NCBI RefSeq assembly: GCF_008933165.1
Contig: NZ_WBVQ01000002.1
Location: forward strand, 829,569-893,568
DNA from: Phaeocystidibacter marisrubri
GTDB taxonomy: Bacteria; Bacteroidota; Bacteroidia; Flavobacteriales; Schleiferiaceae
DNA: 64,000 bases
Reading direction: 5' to 3'
The notes beneath the pieces were generated by a model. It saw only the letters and a program-made list of their open reading frames with translations. It was not told the origin of the DNA and made no database searches. The translations under genes and the position numbers were made by a program. Positions 10,066 through 34,400 of the stretch are shown in pieces (the stretch's first letter is position 1; every line of letters starts with the position of its first letter).

Positions 10066-10080
10066 GGAGGGGTGAGTAGA

Positions 10081-10215
10081 ATGTCGTGAGAGGTGAGAGG
10101 TGAGTCATGTGAGATGAGAGATGACAAAACCCATTAACTCATTAACACCTCAAACCCCACAAACATCTAAAACGCCTCAAACTCCTAAAACCCATTAACC
10201 CCTCAAACCCCTATC
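10081..10215. repeat. Low-complexity intergenic repeat (GAGAGGTGA and CCTAAAAC/CCTCAAAC-type units)
   Basis: The gap holds degenerate GAGAGGTGA-like units, then many variants of CCTCAAACC, CCATTAACC and CCTAAAACC. Related units, on either strand, lie near 39010-39060 and 47105-47130. Confidence 0.6.
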
Positions 10216-18809: not shown

Positions 18810-20498
18810 ATGAAGACGCGCTCTCCACTCATATTCACCCTATTCTTTTCCCTCATTTGCTTGAATGGATTTGGTCAACTCGCCAATGGGCTCGTAGGTG
18901 AATATTTGTTCAATGGAGATCTAACCGACTCTAGTCCATCCAACATTACTGGAATGGGTAACAACCTGCAATTGGTTAACGGGCACGATGGTTCACCCAA
19001 TAGTGCATATCATTTTGACGGGAATCTATCTTATATAGATCTGGGCACCTCTATGCGCGGAATTCTAGATGAATTCACCGTATCCATGTACGTTCGAAGT
19101 GTGGATTCAGGGGGGTCTATGCCGCTTGGCGATAAAGCGGTGTATCAATTCAATCCTGGATTTAAAATTGGCATTTCAAGTCAGTACAATACCAATCCAA
19201 CTGGACATGTATTCTTGGCAATCTATAGGTCGTTGAACACTGGAACTATGATTGCAGGGGACCAACCACCCACCGTAGTTGACGGCCTTTGGCATTGTGT
19301 AGTAGTGGTCAAAGAAAAATGGAAAGCCCGCATTTACGTGGATGGAATACTCGCCGACTCTACCCATTTTCTATTCAATCCCAGTCTAGTCAGCCCAGAA
19401 CCTTGGCTGATTGGAATGACCGACACCGTTGTTGGTAGTGGAGACTACTTCTATAAGGGCGACTTAGATAATTACCGAATATGGAATCGACCACTCACTC
19501 AAGTGGAGGTAGATTCACTTTGCGCTTGTCCTTCTACTGCTATATTGGGATCCAACCAGCGAGAACAATGTAGAGCTGAAGGGAGTGTGGTCATCAAGAG
19601 TAGTTTGATGAATGGATCTTCGTATCAATGGAGTCCTACCGGAGCTACTTCTGATTCTATCGTTGTCCCCTATCCCGATTCAGGCTGGTTCGTGTTGAAC
19701 GTAGTTACAACGGATGGTTGTTCAGTTGTAGATAGTACGTTTGTCCGCTGGATAGAACCTCCTTCCCTAGCACTTCCCAGCTCCTTTGTGGGATGCGCAT
19801 CTTCTGGAACACCCATCACAATTAATGCGGGTATTCAAGCGGATTCTTACCAATGGTCAACGGGTGGAACTAGCGCCACTGAAAATGTCTCTTATCCCGA
19901 CTCCGGCTGGGTGACTTTAGAAGCCACCTCAGACGGCTGTACCTCACGAGATTCAACCTTTATCCGGTGGACCTCAAACCCTCCCACTCCTGATTTAGGA
20001 GCAGATCGTTTGGTGTGCAGTGGAGATTATGTGTACTTAAGAGTCGACAATACTTCAGGAACAATTACTTGGAGTAACGGAAGTTCTGGATCTTCCCTTT
20101 TGGTCAACTCTTTTGGAACCTATTGGGTGAGCGTTTCTAATGATTGTGGCATGGGAACCGATACCATACACATTGCAGAAGACTCTACTTGTATCTTCCA
20201 AAACGAAGAGGATCTTGCGCCGTTCTTCATCCCCAGCTCATTCTCACCCAATGCCGATCGGATCAACGATGCTTTTCACATTGTTCCCAATAAGGCATTT
20301 GATCAGTTTGCGTTCCAAATATTCGACCGCTGGGGCAATCTCATCTTTGAAAGTTCAGATCCTAATTTCAAGTGGTACGGGAACATGCCTTCAGGAGAAC
20401 CTGCCATCCAAGGTGCCTATGCCTTTGTGGTGCATTACAAAGTATCAGGCAGTGCAGAAGCAGAGATTCAAAGAGGCTGGCTTACGCTTTTGAGGTAG
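18810..20498 (+). CDS. LamG-domain surface protein with T9SS type B sorting domain
   Basis: 562 aa. A signal peptide (...LICLNGFGQ) is followed by a LamG/concanavalin-like domain (about 25-235, ending in the typical GDLDNYRIWNRPLTQVEV). Two Ig/PKD-like repeats each contain a YPDSGW motif (about 240-440). The C-terminal gliding-motility-type CTD (FFIPSSFSPNADRINDAF...FDRWGNLIFES...GAYAFVVHY) marks export by the type IX system and surface attachment. The ligand is unknown; LamG domains often bind polysaccharide. Confidence 0.88.
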   Translation: MKTRSPLIFTLFFSLICLNGFGQLANGLVGEYLFNGDLTDSSPSNITGMGNNLQLVNGHDGSPNSAYHFDGNLSYIDLGTSMRGILDEFTVSMYVRSVDSGGSMPLGDKAVYQFNPGFKIGISSQYNTNPTGHVFLAIYRSLNTGTMIAGDQPPTVVDGLWHCVVVVKEKWKARIYVDGILADSTHFLFNPSLVSPEPWLIGMTDTVVGSGDYFYKGDLDNYRIWNRPLTQVEVDSLCACPSTAILGSNQREQCRAEGSVVIKSSLMNGSSYQWSPTGATSDSIVVPYPDSGWFVLNVVTTDGCSVVDSTFVRWIEPPSLALPSSFVGCASSGTPITINAGIQADSYQWSTGGTSATENVSYPDSGWVTLEATSDGCTSRDSTFIRWTSNPPTPDLGADRLVCSGDYVYLRVDNTSGTITWSNGSSGSSLLVNSFGTYWVSVSNDCGMGTDTIHIAEDSTCIFQNEEDLAPFFIPSSFSPNADRINDAFHIVPNKAFDQFAFQIFDRWGNLIFESSDPNFKWYGNMPSGEPAIQGAYAFVVHYKVSGSAEAEIQRGWLTLLR

Positions 20499-20580
20499 TG
20501 ATTCTTTCAGCTCAAAATGTCAACGTGTATGTTCAATCCACTCCTCTCAGCATAAGAAACACTCTCTTCCAATAACACGC

Positions 20581-20610
20581 TTGACTCCATCAATTTTTAA
20601 TTTACATTTG
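20581..20610 (+). promoter_or_regulatory. Promoter of tRNA-Ala
   Basis: TTG (20581-20583), 19-bp spacer, then a perfect TACATTTG -7 box (20603-20610). The predicted start lies a few bases before the tRNA at 20621. Confidence 0.65.
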
Positions 20611-20620
20611 TCGTCCGCTT

Positions 20621-20694
20621 GGGGGTATAGCTCAGTTGGCTAGAGCACTTGCATGGCATGCAAGGGGTCGTCGGTTCGAATCCGACTATCTCCA
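20621..20694 (+). tRNA. tRNA-Ala (anticodon GGC)
   Basis: Complete cloverleaf. Acceptor stem GGGGGTA/TATCTCC (two G-U pairs), D arm GCTCAGTTGGCTAGAGC, anticodon stem CTTGC/GCAAG around the loop ATGGCAT (anticodon GGC), T arm GTCGG-TTCGAAT-CCGAC, discriminator A. CCA is not encoded. Its last 13 bases plus the next C recur at 38440-38453, so it is the integration target of the island to its right. Confidence 0.93.
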
Positions 20695-20695
20695 C
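20682..20695 (+). other. attL core of the tRNA-Ala island
   Basis: CCGACTATCTCCAC, the T-arm/acceptor end of the tRNA, is repeated directly at 38440-38453. The integrase gene begins about 300 bp further on, as expected for an island joined at attL. Confidence 0.75.
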
Positions 20696-20718
20696 TATCA
20701 AAAATCGCAGAAATGCGC

Positions 20719-20755
20719 AAAGTCCTGAAAGTCTGAGAACTTACAGGACTTTTTT
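20719..20755 (+). terminator. Intrinsic terminator downstream of tRNA-Ala (island-borne)
   Basis: AAGTCCTG / CAGGACTT stem followed by a T-run. It supplies termination for the tRNA after the original terminator was displaced to 38462. Confidence 0.7.
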
Positions 20756-20802
20756 GTTTTTCAGGGGAGCAGGTTTGAGCAAGTTCTTGCAAAGTTGCGG
20801 TG

Positions 20803-20836
20803 GCTTATTCGTAACCCCACCCTATTTTGGGGTTAC
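20803..20836. promoter_or_regulatory. Candidate integrase arm-binding site (attL side)
   Basis: GCTTATTCGTAACCC (20803-20817) recurs exactly at 38364-38378. Here GTAACCCC is also mirrored by GGGGTTAC (20829-20836), giving an inverted pair. Position and repetition at both island ends suggest arm-type recombinase sites; this is inference. Confidence 0.5.
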
Positions 20837-20880
20837 GATTTTCCTACAAGCTTCCCCTTCGCAGACTTGCTCAAGGATGC

Positions 20881-20903
20881 AGCACTTTGCGCAGTGCTTT
20901 TTT
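20881..20903 (+). terminator. Intrinsic terminator upstream of the integrase
   Basis: AGCACT-TTGCGC-AGTGCT stem-loop followed by a T-run. It would shield the integrase gene from transcription entering from the tRNA side. Confidence 0.6.
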
Positions 20904-20992
20904 CAATGCGCATTTTATGTTTGTTTCAAAGTGAGGACAGAATCAATTGCGAGTGTTTGTAAACGGTGCTCGCAAGTCAAAACAGTTGATCT

Positions 20993-22225
20993 ATGTCTAA
21001 TAGAAACAGTTTTCGATTACTCTACCTTCTGAACAAATCAAAAGCGAACCAAGAAGGTGCTCCCATCCTTTTGCGTATTACCATCAATGGATCTCAAGCA
21101 TCCATGAATTTGGGTAGACGTATTCCCGTCAATTTATGGAACGACAAAACCCGAATGCCTAAAAACAAGGACGCATTCACGGATGACTTATCCGAATACA
21201 TGGAGTCCATGCGTAACAAGGCTTACCAGTGCTACACTCAATTGAGTAAAGAATACGATGATGTTACTCCAGAAATGGTCAGAGCTTCACTTCAAGGGGT
21301 GCAATCTGGAAGTTCTAGAATGCTGATGGATGTCTGGAATGAGCATAACGATGAAATTGAAAAGCGAATTGGTCGAGGAGTATCAAAGGTACTTTGGCAG
21401 AAAAACCGCACGGCTAAAAGACACTTTGAGCGATTTCTGAAGATTGAATTCAGATGCGATGATATTCCGCTGCGGAGACTTAATGCTGCCCTTGTCCGCA
21501 AGTTCTATTCATACCTCACAGTAGACAAGAACCTCGTTCACAACTCCGCTGTAAAGATTCTTCAATTTCTAAAGAAAATTACCCGCAGGTCACTCTATGA
21601 AGGGTGGATAGCCAAAGATCCATTCATGGGCTTCTCTCTGAGCTTTGAGGAGGTAGATCGACCTTACTTGACGGAAGAGGAGCTCGAATTGATTATCAAC
21701 AAAGAATTCGAAATTGATAGACTCAATTTAATCAAGGATATCTTCTTGTTTGCGTGTTATACAGGACTCGCTTATGTTGATGTACACAAGCTTCGAGGCG
21801 ATGAAATTGAGCGCACGTCCGATGGGGTTTGGTGGATCAAGACCAGAAGACAAAAGACCAATCAAAAGAGTCAGATACCTCTGCTAGCTCCAGCGAAAGC
21901 CATCTTGGACAAGTATGTAAACATGACTCAATTGAAGCCCGATGAACGTTTGCTCCCGGTCTATTCCAATCAGAAGGTCAATTCATACCTGAAGGAAATT
22001 GCGGACTTCTGTGGTATCCGGAAAAAGCTGACATTCCACGTGGCCAGACACACTTTTGCCACCACGGTCACATTGCAGAATGGAGTGTCAATTGAGTCTG
22101 TAAGTCGGATGCTCGGTCATTCAAATATTAAGACGACCCAGCACTACGCTAGAGTAGTTGATAAGAAGCTTGTGGAAGACATGAGTCGGCTTGCGTCTAA
22201 CGGAAAGTTCAATTTGGCGAGGTAG
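20993..22225 (+). CDS. Tyrosine site-specific integrase of the island
   Basis: 410 aa. An N-terminal Bacteroidetes arm-binding domain (SNRNSFRLLYLLNKSKANQEG..., about 1-95) is followed by a SAM-like core-binding domain (about 100-210) and the catalytic domain. Motifs: ACYTGLAYVDVHKL, where Arg I is replaced by Ala (a variation known in Bacteroidetes integrases), KTRRQKTNQ for the beta-hairpin Lys, HVARHTFAT (HxxR), MLGHSNIKTTQHYARV with the nucleophilic Tyr. It lies beside attL and most likely integrates and excises the 20.68-38.45 kb island. Confidence 0.92.
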   Translation: MSNRNSFRLLYLLNKSKANQEGAPILLRITINGSQASMNLGRRIPVNLWNDKTRMPKNKDAFTDDLSEYMESMRNKAYQCYTQLSKEYDDVTPEMVRASLQGVQSGSSRMLMDVWNEHNDEIEKRIGRGVSKVLWQKNRTAKRHFERFLKIEFRCDDIPLRRLNAALVRKFYSYLTVDKNLVHNSAVKILQFLKKITRRSLYEGWIAKDPFMGFSLSFEEVDRPYLTEEELELIINKEFEIDRLNLIKDIFLFACYTGLAYVDVHKLRGDEIERTSDGVWWIKTRRQKTNQKSQIPLLAPAKAILDKYVNMTQLKPDERLLPVYSNQKVNSYLKEIADFCGIRKKLTFHVARHTFATTVTLQNGVSIESVSRMLGHSNIKTTQHYARVVDKKLVEDMSRLASNGKFNLAR

Positions 22226-23188
22226 AGTCAATTGGCAACAGGATGCATCTCGGTTGATTCCGAGGTGCTGATTTGGCTCTCCTGACACCTCGGGGAGATA
22301 TTACGAAGTGAGTTGTACTTCTCGCCGTTGCCCACTTATGCACGAATTTGCGCTTTGCTTTAATCTAAGACCTCCCTAAAATTGCTATAGTCAATTGAGC
22401 GTAACGATTGACAAGACTAGAACGAAGCAATGCCTTTCATGGCAGAAAGTGCACCGAGAGAAGTCCCGGCTCTGAGGATCAATTGACACTATCTTATCAC
22501 TAGTTCATCCTCGAGTCGGACTTCCTTTATTGAATGATAATCAAAACCAAATCTTGGAATGGAAACCACATCGAAACCGTCAATTATCTCCATAATGTCC
22601 CCATCCGTCAGCGACTTCATCATGAAAGATTATGGCTCTCTCAATAGCCTCGAAGGAGGTATCCAAACAACCTTATTCGACCCATTTTTTTTGACCTCTC
22701 ATTGCGGAAAAAATTTCCGAAGTCCATTTTTAGATTAGCAACGAAAACATGGGCGTTTCAGAAGGGATTCCGGTAAAAACGACAACCATACCAGTATATT
22801 CTAACTATTTAAATAAAAGATTAAAGCAAGAAGGAGCGTCTGAGCAGGGCTCATCCGCGCACTCAATTGAAATGAGAAAGAACACACCAAGAGAAGTCAA
22901 AATGAAGACAAATCGGCCTGCGCTAAATTCCTTAGCAAGGGTTATAGACAACTGCTAATGATCAAAACACTAAACAATGAGGCGATAGGCCAGAAGTCAA
23001 AGCGGAGTACAATCACTTCAAGAAACGCGAAAGCTGGCAACAGGGATACCTTAGGCCCGTCAATTGACGGCTCACACAGAAGTGCAGGTGTAAAGTTACT
23101 AGAGGGCCAAGGAGAGATTGCTTTACGATTTTGAAGAGAATTAAAATGTCCTCTCAAAGTGAGAACAATGATGAACGACCGCAACTTT
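22226..23188. other. Island stretch without clear genes, rich in TCAATTGA sites
   Basis: About 960 bp. I count CAATTG-centred sites at 22227, 22391, 22479, 22863 and 23056. A degenerate copy of the CACCTCGG/CCGAGGTG hairpin block lies at 22245-22300. A 44-aa frame on the minus strand (22489-22623) and a 69-aa one on the plus strand (22749-22958) are open; the former, with coding-like sequence in another frame just upstream, could be an eroded gene. None is recognised. Confidence 0.4.
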
Positions 23189-23241
23189 TTACTTCGCAAT
23201 ATTGCGAAGTAACACCTCGGAATCGACAGAGATTCCGAAGT
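23189..23241 (+). repeat. Left copy of the 53-bp inverted repeat flanking the metal module
   Basis: It holds a 24-bp perfect palindrome (23189-23212, centre AATATT), then the hairpin CACCTCGGAATC-GACAGA-GATTCCGA. Its reverse complement occurs at 36864-36916 with one mismatch. Confidence 0.85.
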
Positions 23242-23277
23242 CCTATGAATATTGAGTTAACGTAAATCGATGGTATG

Positions 23278-23646
23278 CTATCTTTGGATAGGTACCGGGG
23301 GTTCGAGTCCCCCTCTCTCCGCCTCAGCTTCTTCCTCATCAAAATACCGGATGTCTGCATCGGTAAAAGGTTTCATGATATCTGTCATGAGTTCGTGCCA
23401 CTTCTTTTGGCCAACAATGGCTACTTTTTTAAGATGCTCCTTATTTTTAAGATCAAACTTCGCATCGCGCCAAAGAGCGCTTGCTGACCAGCCTTCAAAA
23501 TCCTGCATCTCAAAGTACCAGCTAATTTGTTCGTGCTGCTCAATTTTCTGCCACAGTAGTGGTAACATTTTATCGTAATCGGTATCATCAAGTTTGCCTG
23601 TAGCAACCATGTAAATTTTGTCTATATTTTCTTCTATCTGTATCAT
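23278..23646 (-). CDS. STAS/SpoIIAA-like protein, C-terminus replaced at the junction
   Basis: 122 aa. Residues 1-105 match the SpoIIAA-like/STAS pattern of the second copy at 29085-29441 (ISWYFEMQDFEGW here, VDFYFELEDFDGY there; VGQKKWHELM and VGDKKWQEW). The last dozen residues (RGGLEPPVPIQR) come from reading the antisense of the tRNA-Ser-like fragment, so the native end is lost. These small proteins often lie beside membrane transporters; here it follows the CDF gene by 7 bp. Probably a regulator or partner of the transporter. Confidence 0.7.
   Translation of the reverse strand: MIQIEENIDKIYMVATGKLDDTDYDKMLPLLWQKIEQHEQISWYFEMQDFEGWSASALWRDAKFDLKNKEHLKKVAIVGQKKWHELMTDIMKPFTDADIRYFDEEEAEAERGGLEPPVPIQR
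23291..23323 (+). other. tRNA-Ser-like 3' fragment at the left edge of the metal module
   Basis: A perfect T arm (GGGGG-TTCGAGT-CCCCC) is followed by an acceptor 3' half CTCTCTCCGCC typical of tRNA-Ser. No 5' half is present. The STAS gene is cut exactly here, so this is probably an old attachment site. Confidence 0.6.
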
Positions 23647-23653
23647 GTCGTTA

Positions 23654-24448
23654 CTATTTAGAAAGTTTCAAAATGCGAATAGCGCCCCGCATCACAAAGG
23701 CGAACACGATTCCACCAATTAACAGGTCAGGCCATTTGCTGTTTAGAAAATAAACCATTACACCGGCCAGGATCACTCCGCCATTAACAATAATGTCGTT
23801 GGAAGTGAATATGGCGCTGGCCTGCATGTGCGCTTCATCGCTTTTGGCTTTATTGATCAACCATAGGGAAACCAAGTTGCCGATAAGGGCCAGAATTGCT
23901 ATAACTATCATCCATTGAAACAGCGGTGTTTCGCTTTCGCTGAAAAATCTGCGCAAAACTTCTGAGAATCCTAAGAACGCCAATCCCATTTGAAAATAAC
24001 CGCTGAATTTAGCGACTTTCTTCTTTCTGGAAACAGCACCACCAACTGCAAACAGGCTTAGTGCATAAACGATGGAATCTGCCAGCATATCCAATGAGTC
24101 GGCTATCAGGCCCATAGAGTTGGAAATCCATCCAGTAGTCAGCTCTATCACAAAGAAGCCGAAATTGATGCCCAGCACCCACCAAAGTATTTTTCGCTGT
24201 TGGGAGTCGTCAGTAGCCAACGGCAACTCAGCTTCATATTCCGTACTTTCCAAGTGGTCATTGAGCTTAAGTTCACGAATGGCCTGATGGATCTTGTCTA
24301 CTTCTTCCGTGTGATATACCTCCAGTTTACGATTGGGAATATCAAATGAAAGTTGCTTTACCTCACTATAAGGCTCCAGCTTCATGCGGATCATCTGCTC
24401 CTCTGATGGGCAGTCCATTTTTGTTATTATGAATGTGCTTTTTTTCAA
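23654..24448 (-). CDS. Cation diffusion facilitator family transporter with HMA-like N-terminus
   Basis: 264 aa from a TTG at 24448; an in-frame stop precedes it and the next ATG lies inside the first domain. Residues 1-75 are a ferredoxin-like metal-binding domain (ITKMDCPSEEQ, a one-Cys variant of the HMA motif). Five or six membrane segments follow, with GLIADSLDMLADS carrying the metal-site Asp pair. The usual C-terminal cytoplasmic domain is missing. CDF proteins export Zn2+, Co2+, Fe2+ or Cd2+ by proton antiport. It is in line with the ATPase and STAS genes. Confidence 0.85.
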   Translation of the reverse strand: MKKSTFIITKMDCPSEEQMIRMKLEPYSEVKQLSFDIPNRKLEVYHTEEVDKIHQAIRELKLNDHLESTEYEAELPLATDDSQQRKILWWVLGINFGFFVIELTTGWISNSMGLIADSLDMLADSIVYALSLFAVGGAVSRKKKVAKFSGYFQMGLAFLGFSEVLRRFFSESETPLFQWMIVIAILALIGNLVSLWLINKAKSDEAHMQASAIFTSNDIIVNGGVILAGVMVYFLNSKWPDLLIGGIVFAFVMRGAIRILKLSK

Positions 24449-24469
24449 GTGTTTTTTTATTTACCCGTT

Positions 24470-24526
24470 AGTTTAGTTGGCAAAAAATAGTTGGCAAAAG
24501 CAGTTGGCAGTTTGCAAAAGGTACCG
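24470..24526. repeat. GTTGGCA repeats, left flank of the four-helix-bundle gene
   Basis: TTGGCAAAA/AGTTGGCAG units occur four times here. Related units, in part inverted (TTGCCAACTG, GTGCCAACTT), lie on the other side at 24995-25090. Confidence 0.6.
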
Positions 24527-24904
24527 TCATTTATTTCTTGGTTTATATTTTTCGGGGTTTTCAATCATATGGTTGAGCATTCGACCTACCTCTTCTGATT
24601 TAACGACAAGTTCATTTCGCTCTCCTTCCGATATATATTGGCAGGCCAAAGCAAAATCAAGAGAAATCTGAGTTTCAGAGTTTTCCATATCTGCATCACT
24701 CATTTTACTTGAGAAGTGCTTTGGATATTGACGTTTTCTATATCCTTCGCCAATAGCCCGACACACTGATCGTGAAGATCTTCTTAATTGATCAGTCAGC
24801 GCATACTTCTCTTCGGATGGAAATTTCTTAGTAACCTCAAACACCTCCATCGCCAGCGAAAATGCTTTCTTGAAAACAGTCAAATCACGAAAACTACCTG
24901 CCAT
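24527..24904 (-). CDS. Four-helix-bundle protein (S23/IVP family)
   Basis: 125 aa from the ATG at 24904 (a GTG is two codons upstream). Family marks: FRDLTVFKKAFSLAMEVF, then FPSEEKYALTDQLRRSSRSV and IGEGYRKR, and a C-terminal helix with LNHMI. These proteins were first described in 23S rRNA intervening sequences and resemble Avd of diversity-generating retroelements; their function is unresolved. The gene is bracketed by GTTGGCA-type repeats and begins inside the remains of a PII gene, as if it had inserted as a small mobile unit. Confidence 0.85.
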   Translation of the reverse strand: MAGSFRDLTVFKKAFSLAMEVFEVTKKFPSEEKYALTDQLRRSSRSVCRAIGEGYRKRQYPKHFSSKMSDADMENSETQISLDFALACQYISEGERNELVVKSEEVGRMLNHMIENPEKYKPRNK

Positions 24905-24914
24905 AACCACCTGC

Positions 24915-24956
24915 CTTTACTTTCTTTGGTCTGATAAATGTCTTGATCTCTTTCAT
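24915..24956 (-). pseudogene. 5' remnant of a second PII-like gene
   Basis: MKEIKTFIRPKKVK matches the start of the intact PII protein at 29565-29900 (MKEIKAFIKPKRAQ). After 14 codons the sequence turns into the four-helix-bundle insertion, and I do not find the rest of the gene. The insertion explains the truncation. Confidence 0.65.
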
Positions 24957-24994
24957 ATTGTTAGTTGTTTTATTTCTTTCCATCTTTTTAAGTT

Positions 24995-25090
24995 GGCAAT
25001 AGGCAAATAGCAATTGGCAAAAGTTGTCGCGGTTAAGCTTCCTTGCCAACTGTTTTTTTTCTCTTTGCCAACTGCCCAGTGCCAACTTTT
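24995..25090. repeat. GTTGGCA-type repeats, right flank of the four-helix-bundle unit
   Basis: AGTTGGCAATAGGCAAAT and CAATTGGCAAAAG units are followed by inverted TTGCCAACTG, TTTGCCAACTG and GTGCCAACTT. With the left flank they enclose 24527-24956. Confidence 0.6.
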
Positions 25091-25097
25091 AAAAATT

Positions 25098-27602
25098 CTA
25101 TTTCTTATAAGCCAACAATCTCAAAGCATTAAACACCACTACCAGAGTTGACCCTTCATGAATGAGTACCGCAACACCGATATTAGCAAAGCCGAAAACC
25201 GTGGCAGGTATTAACAATGCTACTATTCCCAAACTAACCCAGAGGTTTTGTTTGATAATAGCTTTGGCCTTCCTACTTAAACCGATTGCAAAAGGCAAGG
25301 TCTCCAGCTTATCAGCCATCAGGGCAATATCAGCTGTTTCCAGGGCTACATCACTGCCAGCTGCTCCCATGGCAATGCCTACTGTGCTATTTGCCATGGC
25401 CGGGGCATCATTCACGCCATCACCTACCATCGCTACTTTGGATTCTTTCTCCTTAAGTTCTTTAATGGCTTCAACCTTTTCTTCTGGTAACAAACTGCCC
25501 CAGGCATCTGTAAGGCCAATCTCTTTGGCTACTGCATCGGCTACTTTCTGGTTATCACCCGTTAGCATGATCATACGCTTGATACCAATCTTTTTGAGCT
25601 GCTCCAGGGTATTTTTTGCTTCCTTTCTGGGCGTATCCATCAGGGCAATAATGCCAATGTAGTGGTCATTCTGACGGATCAGCATGGTGGTATTTCCATC
25701 CGATTCCAGTGACTTCACTTTTTCTTCTATTTCCTTCTCTGGCTTATTATCATCCAGGGATTCAAACAGGTCCAGGTTGCCGATGTACACTTTATTATTT
25801 CCCAGTGAAGCTTTTATCCCTTTACCAAGCACCGCTTCCAGATCTTTCGCTTCAAGCACATCAGCACCATTTAATCGCTCTTTCCCATCCCGCACTACAG
25901 CTTTGGCCAGAGGATGGTCGCTGAGGTTTTCTACAGCTACTGCTATTTTCAACAGCTCGTCCTCGTTTACATCACCTAAAGCAATTACTTCGGTGAGCTT
26001 GGGTTTACCTTCTGTTAGCGTTCCGGTTTTATCAAATGCCAGGGCAGTGAGTACACCCAGGTCTTCCAGCGGACGACCACCTTTAATAAGCACTCCGCTT
26101 TTGGCTGCCCGGGCTACTCCACTTAGCACTGCACTTGGGGTGGCAATGGCCAAAGCACAAGGGCTGGCAGCCACCAATACGGCCATTGCTCGGTAGAAGC
26201 TTACACTAAAAGGCTCATCTATGACCAGAAAAGCGAAATTGAGCAACACGACCAGTACCAATACGGACGGGACAAAATACTTCTCAAATTTGTCGGTGAG
26301 CCGTTGTGTAGGTGATTTCTGGGTTTGAGCTTCATTCACCAATTTTACCAAACGGGAGAGCGTAGAGTCCTTTGCTACTTTAATCACTTTGATTTCCAGC
26401 GTATTGTTGCCATTTATGGTACCCGAAAATGCACGGTTCTCATCTTTGATATCATCTTCCTGTGACCAGTCTTTATCGGGATTATCCACCGGTTCTTTAT
26501 CTACCGGCACACTTTCCCCGGTGATAGGCGCCTGATTCACGCTACTTGATCCGCTGACAACCACACCATCGGCTGAGATTTTGCTATTGGGCTTCACCAC
26601 GATGATGTCACCGATGCTCAATTCCTCAATACCGACTTCTTCGGTCTTACCATTTCTCTTAAGCAATGCCGTTTTAGGAGCGAGCTCTGCCAAAGCAGCA
26701 ATGGACTTACGAGCTTTGTTCATGGCGAAGTGTTCCAGTGCATGGCCCATGCTGAACAGGAATAACAATAAGGCGCCTTCCGCCCATTCGCTAAGAATAG
26801 CCGCTCCAATGGCTGCTACCAGCATCAGGAAATCAATTTCAAAGCCGCCTTTGGCCACTGTTTGAATGGCTTCTTTGGCTGTAAAAAAGCCTCCAAAGAA
26901 ATAAGCTCCGATATAAAGTGAAAGACTTACCCATGAAGGCACAGCTTCGATATAAGTAAGCCCAAAGCCAATACCTAATAATGCTCCGCAGATAATGGAA
27001 AAGATCAACTCTGTATTTTTACCGAAAATACCGCCATGCGAATGTTTATCATCTTCACCTTCCTCATGGTCATGTCCCTTGTCAGCTTCTTTTTTTTGCT
27101 CTTCGCCTTTTTTTGTTTCTTTTACTTTATCAAGAAAACGTTCGGCACTCACCTGTGTATCGGGTATATCAAGTCCCTCTTTTCTCAGGGCTTTCAGGAT
27201 TTCCGCCTCATCCACCTTGGCCGTATCATACTCTACCCGCACCATGCCGGATGCCGATACGGAGGCCTCCAAAATACCGGCTATCCCCCGAAGGTCACGC
27301 TCAATATGACGGGCGTGGCGGGTATGGCGAATGCCTTCTACTTCTATGAGTTTATGTCCGAATTTCTGAGTGATTTCCGCCCCGGTTTGCTCTGCCAGCG
27401 ACTGGATACGGTCTATAGAGATCAACTCCGGGTCGTAGTGAAAACAAAGTTGAGGTATGCCATTGTCTGTTTCGTCTGCTACATGCACTTTTTCAAGGCC
27501 TTCTTTATCTTCAAGACGTTGAATGAGTTTTTGCACACATCGATCCTTATCGTCCGGTACTTCGGGCAGTATAAGGGGTATTTTTATTTGTAGTTTTTTC
27601 AT
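25098..27602 (-). CDS. Heavy-metal-translocating P1B-type ATPase
   Basis: 834 aa. Residues of about 1-150 hold two ferredoxin-like domains in which the CxxC metal site is replaced by His (IRHTRHARHIER). A His/Asp/Glu-rich linker (GHDHEEGEDDKHSHGG) and six to eight membrane segments follow. Motifs: SPCALAIATP in the transmembrane metal site, phosphorylation DKTGT (Asp 524), HP locus (SDHPLAKA), MVGDGVNDAPA, HEGSTLVVVFNALRLL near the end. SPC plus HEGST points to the P1B-4 type (Co, Zn, Cd or Fe export). It is in line with NhaA and the CDF gene. Confidence 0.92.
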   Translation of the reverse strand: MKKLQIKIPLILPEVPDDKDRCVQKLIQRLEDKEGLEKVHVADETDNGIPQLCFHYDPELISIDRIQSLAEQTGAEITQKFGHKLIEVEGIRHTRHARHIERDLRGIAGILEASVSASGMVRVEYDTAKVDEAEILKALRKEGLDIPDTQVSAERFLDKVKETKKGEEQKKEADKGHDHEEGEDDKHSHGGIFGKNTELIFSIICGALLGIGFGLTYIEAVPSWVSLSLYIGAYFFGGFFTAKEAIQTVAKGGFEIDFLMLVAAIGAAILSEWAEGALLLFLFSMGHALEHFAMNKARKSIAALAELAPKTALLKRNGKTEEVGIEELSIGDIIVVKPNSKISADGVVVSGSSSVNQAPITGESVPVDKEPVDNPDKDWSQEDDIKDENRAFSGTINGNNTLEIKVIKVAKDSTLSRLVKLVNEAQTQKSPTQRLTDKFEKYFVPSVLVLVVLLNFAFLVIDEPFSVSFYRAMAVLVAASPCALAIATPSAVLSGVARAAKSGVLIKGGRPLEDLGVLTALAFDKTGTLTEGKPKLTEVIALGDVNEDELLKIAVAVENLSDHPLAKAVVRDGKERLNGADVLEAKDLEAVLGKGIKASLGNNKVYIGNLDLFESLDDNKPEKEIEEKVKSLESDGNTTMLIRQNDHYIGIIALMDTPRKEAKNTLEQLKKIGIKRMIMLTGDNQKVADAVAKEIGLTDAWGSLLPEEKVEAIKELKEKESKVAMVGDGVNDAPAMANSTVGIAMGAAGSDVALETADIALMADKLETLPFAIGLSRKAKAIIKQNLWVSLGIVALLIPATVFGFANIGVAVLIHEGSTLVVVFNALRLLAYKK

Positions 27603-27723
27603 GATTGAATTTGTATAGTCTGTTTAGAAATTCTTGCATTTTAATCTCTATAATTCAATTAAATGTTGAATATACCGGAGTATTTCCATGGATTGGTATA
27701 GTGGGACATTGAAAACATCGGGA

Positions 27724-29100
27724 TTATTCATTTTCAGAATGATTATAACTTTCAGTCTCCTTATAGTTATTCTGCTTCGTGCCGATTACCAAAGTAATGA
27801 CACCACCTATAGCAGCAATCAGAGAAGCCATTAAAATACTGATTTTGGATACCTTGATAATCTCAGGATTGTCAAATGCCAGGTTGGTAATAAACAGTGA
27901 CATAGTGAACCCTATACCGGCTATCATGCCCATACCAATAATATGCCGCCATTTCAATGAAGGATGCAGTTCTGCAATACCTATTTTCTGACCTATAAAT
28001 GCAAACAATCCAATACCGGCAACTTTACCCACGGCAAGCCCTAATAAAATACCAAGTCCAAGAGAGCCCGAAACCACTTCCATAAACCCGACATCCAGTT
28101 TTACACCTGCATTGGCAATGGCAAAAATTGGGATAATGAAAAAGGCATTAAAATCAATTAATCTGTTTTCTAACCGGAGCAACGGTGGTCTGGCGTTTTC
28201 CGTGTCTTTTTTAATGGTTTTCAGTATTTGTCCTTGACGCTTATCCTGCATGGGGTCAAGGTTTTCAATATCTGTTTCTTCTAATTCTTTGATATTATGA
28301 GCGGTACGCTCCTTTAATACCTTACTGTCCAATTTGGGTTTTATAGGTATGGTAACCGCGAAAAGCACCCCTGCTATGGTCGGGTGAATGCCTGAATTCA
28401 GGAAGCAATACCATAAAGCGACTCCTCCCACAATGTACCAGAAGAGGTTTTTTACCCCAAAACGGTTTAACAGTAACAATAGGATGAATACACCTCCACC
28501 AGCGCTTAAGTACAGCCCACTAAGCTCATTGCTGTAAAAGAGTGCAATAACGAGTATTGCCCCCAAATCATCCGCTATGGCCAGCGCCACCAGAAAGATT
28601 TTAAGCTGTGCCGGCACCCGCTTCCCCAACAGGCCAATGATGCCCAAAGAATAGGCTATATCGGTAGCCATAGGGATTCCCCAGCCATTGATATTTTCGG
28701 TACCGTAGTTAAAACTTACGAAAATCAGTGCGGGTAAAACCATTCCTCCGATTGCTCCCATGAGCGGCATAGAAGCTTTTTTGAAGGACGACAATTCGCC
28801 CACCATTATTTCCCGCTTCAGTTCCATGCCGGCCACCAGAAAGAATATGGCCATCAGCCCGTCATTGATCCATTCCTTGATGGTCAGACCAAAAGAAAAA
28901 TGTTCGGATAGTTCAAAGAGAAATTCATCTTTAAGATAGTGGTGGTAAGCATCTGCCCAAGGGGAATTGCCCAGCACCAGGGCAATAATGGTTGCGCCAA
29001 TCAGAAGCAATCCTCCGGTGGTCTCCCTGTCCAGAAACTTACGGGCAGTCTCTCTGATATATGCTAATTGGGAGTTACTATTTTCTACTGACTGATCCAT
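27724..29100 (-). CDS. nhaA: Na+/H+ antiporter NhaA
   Basis: 458 aa with 11-12 membrane segments. The transport site Asp pair is in LVALAIADDLGAILVI (D177/D178), and FFLVAGMELKREIMVGEL is the conserved cytoplasmic loop. It is longer than E. coli NhaA (388 aa), mainly by a hydrophilic insert after GVLFAVTIPIKP (about 60 residues) seen in other Bacteroidetes members. It exchanges external H+ for internal Na+/Li+. Its start overlaps the STAS gene by 16 bp, so the two are translationally coupled. Confidence 0.93.
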   Translation of the reverse strand: MDQSVENSNSQLAYIRETARKFLDRETTGGLLLIGATIIALVLGNSPWADAYHHYLKDEFLFELSEHFSFGLTIKEWINDGLMAIFFLVAGMELKREIMVGELSSFKKASMPLMGAIGGMVLPALIFVSFNYGTENINGWGIPMATDIAYSLGIIGLLGKRVPAQLKIFLVALAIADDLGAILVIALFYSNELSGLYLSAGGGVFILLLLLNRFGVKNLFWYIVGGVALWYCFLNSGIHPTIAGVLFAVTIPIKPKLDSKVLKERTAHNIKELEETDIENLDPMQDKRQGQILKTIKKDTENARPPLLRLENRLIDFNAFFIIPIFAIANAGVKLDVGFMEVVSGSLGLGILLGLAVGKVAGIGLFAFIGQKIGIAELHPSLKWRHIIGMGMIAGIGFTMSLFITNLAFDNPEIIKVSKISILMASLIAAIGGVITLVIGTKQNNYKETESYNHSENE

Positions 29101-29441
29101 TCTTTTGCCTTTTTCTTCTCCTGAAGGTGAAAAAATCTGACTTCTGAATCCGTAAAAAAATCAGTGGCTTTGGCCGCCCACTCCTGCCATTTTTTATCTC
29201 CAACAAATGCCATTTTTCCATAATCTGATAGATGTGTGGTATCTACTTTTAAATCTTCCCATAAACCTTCCAACTCGTAGCCGTCAAAGTCTTCCAGTTC
29301 AAAGTAGAAATCTACCTTTTGGCCTTTTTCAATAGTGTTGTGGATGAGCGGGTGGAATCTTTCCACGTCTTTTTTGGAGATTTTACCGCTGATTTTAGCG
29401 GCAATCAAGTTTTCCTCTTTTGTTTCCATTATCTGCATCAT
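29085..29441 (-). CDS. STAS/SpoIIAA-like protein coupled to NhaA
   Basis: 118 aa, intact paralogue of the truncated protein at 23278-23646. It has the SpoIIAA-like core (KVDFYFELEDFDGYELEGLWEDLK, MAFVGDKKWQEW, TDSEVRFF). Two ATGs are adjacent at the start, and a third, METKEEN, is five codons in. Its last codons overlap the NhaA start. STAS domains often regulate anion transporters; pairing with NhaA and CDF exporters here suggests a similar task, not tested. Confidence 0.75.
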   Translation of the reverse strand: MMQIMETKEENLIAAKISGKISKKDVERFHPLIHNTIEKGQKVDFYFELEDFDGYELEGLWEDLKVDTTHLSDYGKMAFVGDKKWQEWAAKATDFFTDSEVRFFHLQEKKKAKEWISQ

Positions 29442-29564
29442 CTTACTAATTGTTCATGGGTTTCTAAGTCTGTTTATGTTCAAATCATTGTTGTTTGCAG
29501 CATGTCCCTCCTCCACATACCGGTGTTTCATTTCAACTGGACGCATTAACATCTTAAAATCGCT
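29442..29564. other. Gap with a Cys-rich open stretch
   Basis: No gene is called. On the minus strand a frame without ATG reads NETPVCGGGTCCKQQ before a stop, which could be the tail of a lost metal-binding protein; a 32-aa ATG frame overlaps it. Confidence 0.25.
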
Positions 29565-29900
29565 TTAGACCTGTTTTCGGATCGACTCACCCGTTTTTAT
29601 CCGAAACGCATCCTCAATTTCCGAAACGTATATAATCCCATCTCCCGGCTCAGGTGTTTTGGCCTTGCCAATTATCAACTGTACCGCTTTATCCATTTCT
29701 TCATTCTGGCAGACCAGCTCCAGCTTTACCACCGGGCTATCGGTAACATGAAAATCAAGAGAGGGTGAGGCGCCCTTTGCTTTGTGGGCTCCTGTACCCT
29801 CTGCCTGTGAGATAGTCATGCTTTGAAAACCAGCCTCGCTCAAGGCTTCAATGACTACCTGTGCCCGCTTGGGCTTGATAAATGCTTTTATTTCTTTCAT
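29565..29900 (-). CDS. PII-like regulator of the heavy-metal-linked group (PII-NG-like)
   Basis: 111 aa with the PII fold: MKEIKAFIKPKRAQVVIEAL at the start and GKAKTPEPGDGIIYVSEIEDAFRI near the end, the nucleotide-binding C-terminal signature. The T loop (about 37-55) lacks the uridylylated Tyr of GlnB/GlnK. A group of PII proteins encoded next to CusA/CzcA-type efflux genes (PII-NG) has been described, and this one fits by sequence and setting. It probably senses ATP/ADP or metal and acts on a transporter, not on nitrogen control. Confidence 0.82.
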   Translation of the reverse strand: MKEIKAFIKPKRAQVVIEALSEAGFQSMTISQAEGTGAHKAKGASPSLDFHVTDSPVVKLELVCQNEEMDKAVQLIIGKAKTPEPGDGIIYVSEIEDAFRIKTGESIRKQV

Positions 29901-31424: not shown

Positions 31425-34400
31425 TTAGTTTGTTGTTTGTAAATAGTATTCGAGTTCATAGCGGCTGTCCAGGTAATTGCCCAAAGCATTCCATGAATCC
31501 ACTTCTATGCGGATAGCGTCCCTTATGTTTTGCAAAAAACTTACATAGTCTATTGCGCCTTCTCGGTAAGCCGTTATCGAACCTTGTCTTTGCTCGCGTG
31601 CCAGCGGCAATGCCTGGTCACGATAGTAAATCCATGAGTTACGCCATTTCAGGTATTCTTCCCGCATGGATTGGTACTCGGCATTGAGTTGAAGCTGGTT
31701 CTGCCTGAGATTTTCCGTGGCAATTTCGCGCTGGATTTTAGCCTCTTGCGTACGGCCCAGCTCGGGCCCAAAAAACAAGGGGATTTGTATGCCTATTTGG
31801 TAGGTGTAAAACCCGGTTTGCCCCCCAACTTCTTGCCAGCCATACTGTCCTTGTAACTTGGGCAAAAACTCCGATCTTCTTTCCTTTATTCGAGCATCGG
31901 CCACTTTTATTTGCTGTTGATACACATTAAGCAAAGGGTGAGTACTTAGGGAATCCAAGTCATAATTAAGGATCCCGGTCAATTGCTCACTGGGCACATC
32001 CGGTACTGTATAAAGGGTATCGCTGACCAGCCATAAGTTGAGCCGCTGCAAAGCGCCCAGGTAATCGCGATAGGCCTGTTCCTTTTGGATGCGCACTTCA
32101 TTGGCCTGGTTTTTAGTGGCCAAATAGGCCAGTTTAGAAGTTTCTTCTACTTCCAACCTCACATCTGCCGCTCGTTCTATATCGGTAAAGAGCGAATCCA
32201 AACGGTTGTACACCTGGTAGGTGTTTTTAGCGGTGTAAACCTGGCCCCAGGCCAACTTCACTTCTCGTTTAAGCTCTGTTAATGACAGGTCGAGAGCGCT
32301 TTCGGCAAGGGCGACCCGTTCCTTTTGCAAGCGCAGTCGTGGAGCAATTCCAAAAACATCAATATTTTGTTGTTGAACCCCTATCCGCGTATAAACTCCA
32401 TCAGTATTGCTGCTTGCTTCTTCCGCTCCCGTGAAAATTTGGGTGTTCCCAAAATCCCATGCGGTTTTCTTCAAGGCTTCCTCACTTTCTATTTGCAGCC
32501 TTTTGGCCTTCACTTGCGGGAAATACTCAACAGCCCGATTTTGGGCACCTTCAAGGGAAATGCTTTGCAAGGTATCCGGGTTTATTCCCTGTGCGTGTGC
32601 AGATTGGGAAAAGCCAAGAAAACTACCTAAACCAATGAGTAGAACGATGGTGTTCAGAGCTGTTTTATGCCCCTGGTTTCCGATTTTCTTTTCCCTGCGT
32701 TTCTCAACGAAGGTATAGAGTACAGGCAGTACAACCAGCGTAAGAAGTGTAGCCGACAGCATTCCACCAATTACTACGGTGGCCAAAGGCCGTTGCACTT
32801 CCGCTCCGGCAGATGCCGAGAAAGCCATAGGCAGGAAACCGAATATATCCGTGGTTGCAGTAAGCATGATGGGGCGAATCCTTTCTTTGGTACCGGTCAA
32901 AATTCGATCCTTTAAGCTGGTCACCCCTTCTTCTTTGAGGGAATTGAAGCGGTTGATCAGAACCAAACCATTCAATACAGCTACACCAAACAGCACGATA
33001 AATCCAACACCGGCTGAAATACTAAATGGCATATCTCTCATCCACAAGGCAAAAACGCCCCCTATGGCTGCCAGGGGAATGGCCATGTAGATCATAATGG
33101 ATTGCGAAAATGACTTTAGTGCAAAATAGAGCAGCACGAAAATCAAAAAGAGTGCAATGGGCACTACAATAGTGAGCCGTTTTTTGGCACTCTGTAAATT
33201 CTCAAATTCGCCACCATACGTAATATAATAGCCAGATGGTAAATCCAATTGATCATCCAATTTAGCCTGTATGTCATTTACTACCGACTCCACATCCCTG
33301 CCTCGCACGTTTACACCTACGTAAGTCCTACGGTAGGTATTGTCGCGGCTAATCTGCATCGGGCCTGGTTGGTAACTTATGTCAGCTATTTCTTTGATGG
33401 GAATTTGTGTTCCGTTCTCAAGGTCGATATACAGGGTGCGCAGATCGTCTATACCTTGGCGGTGGGCCTCATCAAAACGGATGACCAGATCAAAGCGTTT
33501 TTCGCCTTCAAAAATCACCCCTGCCTTTCCACCTGCAAAAGCAGAACTGATGTAGGCGTTCACCTTTTCAATGTCCAACCCGTATTGTGCCATTTTCTTG
33601 CGGTTATAGCGCACGGTCATTTGAGGCAAACCCGAAGTTCGTTCGGCATTCACATCACCTGCACCCGGCACGGTCTCAATAATATCGGCCATTTCCTGAA
33701 CTTTGGTAGCCAATACATCCAGGTCTTCACCATAGAGCTTGACAGCAATGTCTTCGCGCACTCCCTCCAAAAGTTCATTGAATCGAAGTTCCACAGGTTG
33801 TGTGAACACAAGGTTGACACCAGTCAACCGCTCTTCAAGCAGTTCCTTGATTTCGTCAATAAGCCCTTCCTTCGTTTCTGCCGTAGTCCACTTATCCCGG
33901 TCTTTTTCCAGAATGAGGTACATATCGGCAATATCCATTGGCATAGGGTCGGTAGGAATGTCGGCCACACCTATGCGAGCTGTTACGGTTTTGATTTCCG
34001 GGAAATTCTCCAGTAAGAGGTTTTCAATTTTATAGGATAATTCTGTAGATTCACTGAGCGAACTTCCTGGCCTTATCAATGCCTGCATGGCGATATCACC
34101 TTCATCCAGTTGGGGCACAAATTCTCCTCCCATTCGGGAAAAGGTATAGCCTGCTATGCCGAGCAGAACAACAGCAACGATAATTACCATTGTTTTAAAC
34201 CGGAGTGCACTTTTGAGTAAGGGCAGATAGGCCCAATGAATGCCACCAATGACTTTATCACTGATTTTTTCCAGCCAGCGTTCAAATCGCCCAAACCAGT
34301 TCTTTCTGTTTTGGATGGGTTTCATGAAAAGGGCAGACATCATGGGAACGTAAGTGAGGCACAAGACTATAGCACCTATCATGGCAAATCCAAAGGTATA

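Follow-up and report, generated by a model that had tools for sequence, protein, structure and literature searches.

Inverted heptad arrays frame S23 four-helix-bundle genes in operon gaps: a statistical pattern over many loci and a putative self-recognising unit

Genes of the S23 (23S_rRNA_IVP) family are, as a statistical pattern over many loci, enclosed by an inverted frame of period 7 with the consensus NAG(T/A)NNN, whose G-rich strand lies upstream of the gene, and a locus-specific word is partly common to both arms. The GTTGGCA frame found around one S23 gene of Phaeocystidibacter marisrubri is one case of this general pattern. As the best explanation we propose a widespread S23 unit residing in operon gaps, in which a pentamer of the S23 protein would recognise the heptads framing its own gene; taken as a whole, we regard this explanation as somewhat more probable than its opposite.

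The window, i.e. the whole analysed stretch of 64,000 nucleotides to which all coordinates refer, contains the following features:

24527 to 24904, minus strand: S23 / 23S_rRNA_IVP four-helix-bundle gene, 125 aa from the ATG at 24904 (TIGR02436, PF05635, AlphaFold2, Foldseek)
24473 to 24516, minus strand: downstream array, C-rich on the gene strand, with plus-strand GTTGGCA at 24476, 24490 and 24503 (period-7 score 8, shuffle P 0.004)
24894 to 24956, minus strand: 20-codon ORF with the PII-like start MKEIKTFIRPKKVKAGGYGR, overlapping the S23 start codon (DNA match to the intact PII gene)
24990 to 25026, minus strand: inner part of the upstream array, opposite in polarity and reading TTGCCAA on the gene strand (period-7 score 9, shuffle P <0.001)
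25040 to 25089, minus strand: outer part of the upstream array, G-rich and composed of AGTTGGC words as read on the gene strand (period-7 score 7, shuffle P 0.02)
25098 to 27602, minus strand: E1-E2 metal ATPase, upstream host gene (PF00122, PF00702)
23654 to 24448, minus strand: cation efflux protein, downstream host gene (PF01545)
29565 to 29900, minus strand: intact PII gene; the genome has no second PF00543 match, and the PII-like leader has its nearest source here
10060 to 10215, strand not assigned: heptad tract without S23 located between two genes, with a G-rich period-7 tract at 10086-10124 preceding a C-rich run

In the profile search the S23 protein, whose ORF is listed from a GTG at 24910, reached 89.6 bits with TIGR02436 (cut-off 24) and 104.8 bits with PF05635 (cut-off 33.8). 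AlphaFold2 modelled it as one chain with pLDDT 96, and the best Foldseek match of this model was 2gsc (2gsc_E, E 7.4e-06, TM 0.84/0.93). The protein is a secure family member with, according to the model, the four-helix-bundle fold of 2gsc/2rld, as had been stated in the preliminary description of this locus. Its statement that GTTGGCA-type, partly inverted repeats lie on both sides was likewise confirmed: seven of the eleven GTTGGCA copies of the window fall within 24476-25086 (Poisson P about 7e-12). The order on the minus strand is metal ATPase, upstream arrays (25089-24990), PII-like ORF, S23, downstream array and cation efflux gene. All three arrays have a strict period of 7, the shuffle P at lags 6 and 8 being at least 0.055. 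The upstream array is double, its outer G-rich part and its inner part of opposite polarity forming the inverted pair I1, and the inverted pairs I2 and I4 represent termini that can pair into a stem enclosing the S23 ORF. Folding of the flanking RNA, which had been proposed as a check, paired the outer upstream array with the downstream array (z -2.95 vs 20 shuffles). Between the arrays the ORF list contains S23, the PII-like ORF and one antisense or overlapping ORF of 64 aa and no transposase; S23 itself matched no transposase family in the profile search. A 23S rRNA gene does not surround the unit, as a search of 23000-27000 yielded no match to rRNA at E values of 1 or below. The Rfam scan of the same region gave nothing at gathering strength and two weaker matches, both outside the unit. 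A match to Plastid-psbl-rps4 at 23263-23321 on the minus strand has 36.6 bits (gathering score 68, E 3e-05).

A copy of the S23 region that is 99.9% identical over 3,096 aligned bp was found in a genome of another genus of the same family (G029), and this identity suggests that the metal-resistance island including the S23 region is a recent transfer. The PII protein is 100% identical in G029 (window 23654-29900 compared). A tRNA-Ala gene (ggc, 20621-20695) is followed by a phage-type integrase gene (20993-22225, PF00589), probably marking an island edge; direct repeats of at least 20 nt, as possible island ends, were not present in 20200-23700. At 31425-35837 a single ORF of 1470 aa combines an AcrB-type efflux pump with an outer-membrane efflux protein (PF00873 and PF02321). 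In a search for viral relatives with the window S23 as single-protein query, which covers close relatives, three stretches matched a pattern and none encodes a relative.

Conservation of the flanks around other S23 genes had been named as a check of the unit, and the answer is divided: the literal word is not conserved, the period-7 arrays as a class are. GTTGGCA as a shared end of S23 units was tried and rejected, since the flanks of the genome's three further S23 loci carry other words and show no GTTGGCA. A pattern search of the same genome for the window repeat gave no exact matches, yet this was a poor probe by which the window copy itself was not matched exactly. By eye, two of the own-genome loci (L003, L004) appear as weak, probably decayed S23 copies with word arrays still adjoining, of the GGGATAA type and, on both sides, of the GCAAGGGGC type, respectively.

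At E<=0.001 S23 was detected in 185 of 247 Bacteroidia genomes, with up to 18 matches each. The first flank set comprised 133 loci from 91 genomes, selected from 144 loci by leaving out duplicates (L006, L007, L036, L037), weak or degenerate copies (L003, L004, L021, L031) and loci with a short flank (L027, L060, L173). Among the seeds of the S23 HMM, L060 had entered with a wrong adjacent ORF, and the false match due to it was taken out manually. Heptamer sharing was determined by comparing the 150 nt directly upstream of the gene with the reverse complement of the 150 nt directly downstream. For the 133 loci the mean inverted sharing was 10.50, compared to 4.75 for direct sharing, 2.29 for cross-locus pairs and 1.67-2.81 for inverted sharing when the same geometry was moved by 150-1000 nt along the same DNA. 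The cross-locus 95% point was exceeded by 72 loci for inverted and 14 for direct sharing (47 and 8 for the 99% point), and 61 of the 133 loci did not lie above the 95% point of inverted sharing. Restriction to one locus per site gave 39/70 inverted vs 10/70 direct over the 95% point.

For the tract analysis a minimum of 20 nt and a co-directional neighbour were required, leaving 117 upstream and 113 downstream arms of the 133 loci and both arms in 104. Identity within 221 arms between S23 and its neighbours was 0.493 at distance 7 vs 0.321 expected, 0.449 at 14 and 0.414 at 21, whereas the remaining distances up to 24 gave values close to or under expectation. Lag-7 tracts exceeded the shuffle limit in 80/117 upstream and 75/113 downstream arms, compared to 17 and 26 for lag 8 and 2-9 for lags 5, 6, 9 and 10. 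From 155 tracts the consensus N-A-G-(T/A)-N-N-N was derived (A 0.67, G 0.86), and it was found independently in a second set of 94 tracts (A 0.74, G 0.87). The consensus scores were higher than in every permuted-phase run (201.2 vs at most 146.2 in 40 runs; 273.9 vs at most 210.1 in 30 runs). Read from the outer end inward to the gene, G exceeded C in 135 vs 12 of the 155 tracts and in 79 vs 11 of the 94. The median tract measured 31 nt, corresponding to 4.4 heptads. The five non-AG positions had an identity of 0.678 among the heptads of one arm, 0.477 across the two arms of a locus and 0.346 across different loci (90 of 208 loci).

In a scan of named genomes the best 80 loci were kept, of which 75 were usable (61 Bacteroidota, 2 Balneolota, 12 others) after one locus already present in the first set (L262) and four with a short flank (L281, L291, L297, L319) were left out; only protein-identical repeats of the first set were removed, so that some hosts may be close. 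The 63 Bacteroidota and Balneolota loci gave an inverted sharing of 10.84, a direct sharing of 6.44 and a cross-locus value of 2.69, with 31/63 inverted and 9 direct over the 95% point. Lag 7 exceeded the shuffle limit in 86 of 126 flanks, compared to 3, 3 and 1 for lags 5, 6 and 10, 20 for lag 8 and 10 for lag 9. The 12 other loci carry titles such as Clostridia, Pirellula, Omnitrophica, Nomurabacteria and one 'bacterium'; they are mostly metagenome bins whose single labels may be wrong. Their inverted sharing was 10.67 (direct 1.58, cross 2.01), with 5/12 over the 95% point and lag 7 in 15/24 flanks. Furthermore, 25 plasmid records match S23, and ten among the 15 listed were examined, all of them cyanobacterial. 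A period-7 tract was present upstream in 9/10 (P <0.002) and downstream in 6/9 testable flanks (P <=0.022), for example as (AAAAGCT)n S23 (AAAAGCC)n between cas6 and cas4 on a Pseudanabaena galeata plasmid and as GGGAACA/TGTTCCC around S23 on a Nostoc edaphicum plasmid. The exception is a Picosynechococcus S23 between cas10 and a cmr3-type gene, which has no period-7 tract. On three cyanobacterial plasmids (L339, L343, L346) S23 lies inside CRISPR gene rows, twice at cas6-cas4 and once at cas10-cmr3-type.

The word of the arms is linked to the lineage of the protein. For 103 loci with a tract, out of 126 with an arm, word and protein similarity correlated at one site with rho 0.65 (246 pairs). 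Between sites a Mantel r of 0.213 was obtained, which was reached in 0/2000 permutations (103 loci; same-site pairs were left out and host relatedness was otherwise ignored). The mean word similarity between sites was 0.28 at protein identities of at least 60% vs about 0.04 below 45%. As a statistical pattern, the linkage holds also between different operon sites. Within one genome the words of paralogues were mostly different, but no more distinct than those of other pairs (29 within-genome pairs). Covarying S23 residues (151 of 208 loci) were listed and not relied on, as one clade makes up 103 of the 151 loci.

The preliminary description had treated gene plus repeats as a minimal mobile unit that seems to have jumped into a protein gene, and the operon sites bear on both parts of this claim. 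In 118 of the 133 loci S23 lies in sense between two co-directional genes and in four it is antisense to two such genes, the remaining 11 being mixed or unresolved. Adjacent genes are co-directional anyway (147/166 pairs in the fetched loci, 43/51 in the window), and the contrast of 118 vs 4 is therefore the informative part. In the median of 91 loci, the aligned arms leave about 3 nt to the stop codon of the upstream gene and 8 nt to the start codon of the downstream gene. For the SufB-SufC slot, defined by PF01458 plus an ABC ATPase, 21 out of 28 SufB loci were read; among the other seven, at least four genomes (G115, G173, G224, G270) have S23 at this slot. The gap is bare in six of the 21 loci with 10-23 nt (L179, L183, L188, L191, L199, L203) and measures 467-688 nt in the seven that contain S23 with flanking arms (L176, L178, L181, L184, L193, L198, L202), so that gene and repeats appear to form one unit, and empty sites, as had been asked for, exist. 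Three gaps of 74-98 nt hold other repeats or a solo tract (L186, L187, L190), three of 358-422 nt hold other inserts (L177, L180, L189), and L182 (1210 nt) and L185 have no usable gap. By eye, the insert of L189 includes a small ORF reading like a GIY-YIG nuclease beside GTCATTCTGAGCGAAGCGAAGAATCT, and L190 a solo repeat of similar kind. From their neighbour proteins, we take further slots to be of fad type or those of thiolase, Sdh, PDH and RNR. An exact empty site of the window ATPase-CDF junction was not found among the related junctions; L231-L233 hold other small genes, and in L230 and L254 the efflux gene follows an adaptor gene (named by reading).

On a quick S23 tree with a simple model, 75 loci at 17 recurrent operon sites required 22 site changes, with a minimum of 16 and at least 49 in 100 shuffles. 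For comparison, host family required 42 changes on the same 75 rows (23 families, minimum 22, shuffles at least 54) and 82 on all 133 rows (40 families, minimum 39, shuffles at least 100). S23 proteins of one slot mostly group together irrespective of the host family; the slots are thus old and mostly kept, and S23 follows its slot more closely than the host family. The remaining 58 of the 133 loci are at sites seen once, so that the S23 family reached many places over time. The dN/dS values were about 0.03-0.13 in six usable close pairs of nine (three were saturated), which shows purifying selection on the S23 proteins. Frequent jumping is thus not supported by the 22 site changes. The similar words carried by close proteins at different sites are in line with gene plus repeats being one unit. 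This unit is passed on mainly by descent, arriving at a new slot only occasionally.

A transposon-like unit is the alternative that has to be considered first. In this case the arrays would be DNA ends with repeated binding sites, S23 an accessory protein binding these ends, an enzyme encoded elsewhere would move the unit, and arms without S23 would be non-autonomous copies. The inverted ends, the presence or absence of the unit at the SufB-SufC slot, the existence of S23-less arms, the similar words of close proteins at different sites and the missing RNA-wobble signal (see below) are all in line with this. However, no transposase is encoded in the unit, the slots are old, S23 is strongly biased to the sense strand between co-directional genes, and by eye no target duplication is seen in the SufB-SufC gaps. 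We consequently consider a transposon-like nature unlikely, though worth keeping in mind.

Our preferred explanation, recognition of the heptads by the S23 pentamer, starts from the solved S23 relatives 2gsc (from Xanthomonas) and 2rld (from Bacteroides), which contain five chains each. The title of the 2006 structure paper on Xcc0516 mentions five four-helix bundles. Together with the fixed AG and the four to five heptads of a tract, the number of five subunits suggests that each subunit reads one heptad. The pentamer would accordingly cover the heptads of its own gene with about one heptad per subunit, AG being the putative common contact and the free heptad positions the specific part. Most likely S23 would bind the G-rich strand as a single strand in the operon transcript, and binding would compete with base-pairing between the two arms, by which the S23 message can come to lie inside a stem as in the rRNA intervening sequences that carry S23. 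In this way the unit may control or cut out its own message while sparing the host genes; a gene for a mover is not part of it. RNA is our first choice over DNA as the nucleic acid predicted to be read, because the units have the sense orientation within operons, S23 is already familiar from transcripts with a stem, and the outer arms of the window unit pair in the fold. Two tests able to favour an RNA stem did not do so. Transitions compatible with wobble pairing were no more frequent than incompatible ones and gave no signal of selection (85 vs 102, P 0.24; 91 aligned of 104 loci), and the heptad register between the arms was weak, with a mean z of 0.47, P<=0.05 in 10/84 and P>=0.5 in 47/84 (84 of 208 loci).

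The same two tests bear on the simpler possibility of a pure intervening sequence, in which the arms are merely an RNA stem for the host RNase III; the heptads would then only preserve the complementarity of the arms and would not be read by the protein. According to PMC4990558, the ORF of the rRNA intervening sequence belongs to the same protein family and lies in a 28 bp stem that is cut by RNase III. The inverted arms, the sense position in operons and the fold of the window unit agree with this possibility as well. A stem, however, needs neither period 7 nor a fixed AG, the wobble asymmetry is missing, the arms are hardly in register, and the words follow the protein lineage between sites, which makes a pure intervening sequence quite improbable.

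Heptad tracts also occur apart from S23, and slippage might produce heptanucleotide repeats in many gaps, S23 merely sitting where it is tolerated. Tracts without S23 exist, and heptamers have been reported to be the commonest long simple repeats in many bacteria. Against such hitch-hiking, tracts with a score of at least 10 were present in 200/352 gaps next to S23 vs 17/105 other gaps of the same loci, and for gaps of 25-50 nt in 47% of 133 next to S23 vs 0/25 others. In addition, the inversion is centred on the gene, the polarity is pronounced in both tract sets, and the words are linked to the protein, so that we attribute very little probability to hitch-hiking. Heptad tracts were found in 176/266 S23 flanks, in 31/167 far sides of neighbour genes and in 2/18 flanks of nine solitary DUF559 genes. 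Score-14 tracts occurred at 0.997 per kb within 250 nt of S23 (140 tracts) vs 0.063 per kb farther away (33 in 523 kb, mostly coding). The enrichment beside S23 is strong, not exclusive. The tract at 10060-10215 of the window is a possible S23-less frame, the absence of S23 being judged from the four matches of the genome. By eye, some S23-less tracts consist of back-to-back arms (L099, L158, L176, L195). Likewise by eye, DUF559 (PF04480, confirmed for L067), which is present in 121/247 Bacteroidia genomes, resembles a second gene-plus-repeats unit (loci L066-L069, L071, L073, L075, L083, L086, L087, L090, L091). Its solitary copies adjoin palindromic TCCTTCTCC..GGAGAAGG repeats, and several top matches are in-frame inserts in long ORFs that resemble MetH and LeuRS, flanked on either side by repeat-derived peptides.

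The PII-like ORF had led to the description of the unit as an insertion inside a PII gene. It begins MKEIKTFIRPKK and shares 9 of 12 residues with the intact window PII protein (MKEIKAFIKPKR). At the DNA level it matches the intact PII gene (29900-29565, minus strand) over 34 bp with 79% identity (E 0.038 in a search within the window), the match beginning one base before both ATG codons. The spacing given earlier, S23 starting 11 bp after PII codon 14, is correct (codon 14 ends at 24915 and the S23 ATG occupies 24904-24902). As to the PII remnant itself, the PII-like start is probably real, despite an E of just 0.038 within the window and although the 20-residue peptide alone gave no Pfam match; a fuller match was not found among the other PII genes compared. 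The ORF lies between the upstream repeats (24990-25089) and S23, its end overlapping the S23 start codon (ATGGCAGGTAG), and it is not continued anywhere in the unit. That the unit was inserted into a PII gene, in favour of which only the PII-like start directly before S23 speaks, has hardly any likelihood left, since the piece comprises 20 codons within the repeat frame, a PII 3' part is found beside the unit neither in the window nor in the 99.9% identical G029 copy, the single PF00543 match of the genome is the intact gene, and related ATPase-CDF junctions hold other genes. The PII-like piece is more readily explained as a captured leader than as the target of an insertion.

Structures of S23/IVP proteins have been available since 2006; no role assigned to these proteins was found in the literature. 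Known heptanucleotide repeats include the STRR of cyanobacteria. TAACTGA repeats have been described for Beggiatoaceae, cyanobacteria and five Bacteroidetes (PMC4679880), and GGGAATC of Xanthomonas, where inverted pairs are reported, and GGGGA(C/T)T of Nostoc in PMC4692102. An excess of heptanucleotide repeats in bacteria has been described, for which slippage was proposed as the cause. Like the S23 arms, these repeats are tandem 7-mers located in gaps near stop or start codons; they comprise a few words per species, unlike the locus-specific S23 words. MacGregor suggested that a repeat-binding protein might itself be the mobile element. The text of PMC4679880 contains no occurrence of helix bundle, 23S or intervening, and that of PMC4692102 none of S23 or four helix. 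A paper joining S23 genes to heptamer repeats was not found in the open-licence literature, to which the search was confined. Joining the two makes both questions testable by one binding assay, and if the word-protein code holds, it would provide a natural set of sequence-addressed small binders. In its widest form, S23 proteins would be pentameric readers of their own seven-base address, present in about four or five heptad copies on each side, the words keeping paralogues within a genome separate. Self-addressed control units would then reside in operons of core metabolism, Fe-S assembly, CRISPR and DNA transfer, and many of the heptanucleotide repeats that still lack an explanation in Bacteroidota, Cyanobacteria and other bacteria would represent S23 sites, live or dead; we put this forward tentatively and lean somewhat against it in its full extent.

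Among known systems, the 23S rRNA intervening sequences of Coxiella and Leptospira (PMC4990558) contain an S23 ORF, reported as decaying in Coxiella, inside inverted termini able to form a stem. The units studied here share the S23-family ORF between such termini, but differ in their location in protein operons, their locus-specific heptad arms, the many copies per genome and the purifying selection on the protein. Avd of the diversity-generating retroelements (PF22296, 4dwl) has the same fold and distant homology to S23 (PMC10053308), with the window protein staying under the Avd cut-offs (39.1 of 40 bits for PF22296, 31.3 of 80 bits for NF033474). Unlike in the Avd setting, an unsystematic look noticed no reverse transcriptase beside S23. 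REP/RAYT and MITE-type units are small inverted-repeat units in gaps, with and without a gene, from which the S23 unit differs by lacking a transposase and by having period-7 arrays with one word per locus as arms. TRAP is a ring protein that reads evenly spaced, AG-containing repeated triplets, one per subunit; here only the proposed logic is alike and no homology is claimed, the S23 homologues being five-chain four-helix bundles with putative binding to repeats at a spacing of 7.
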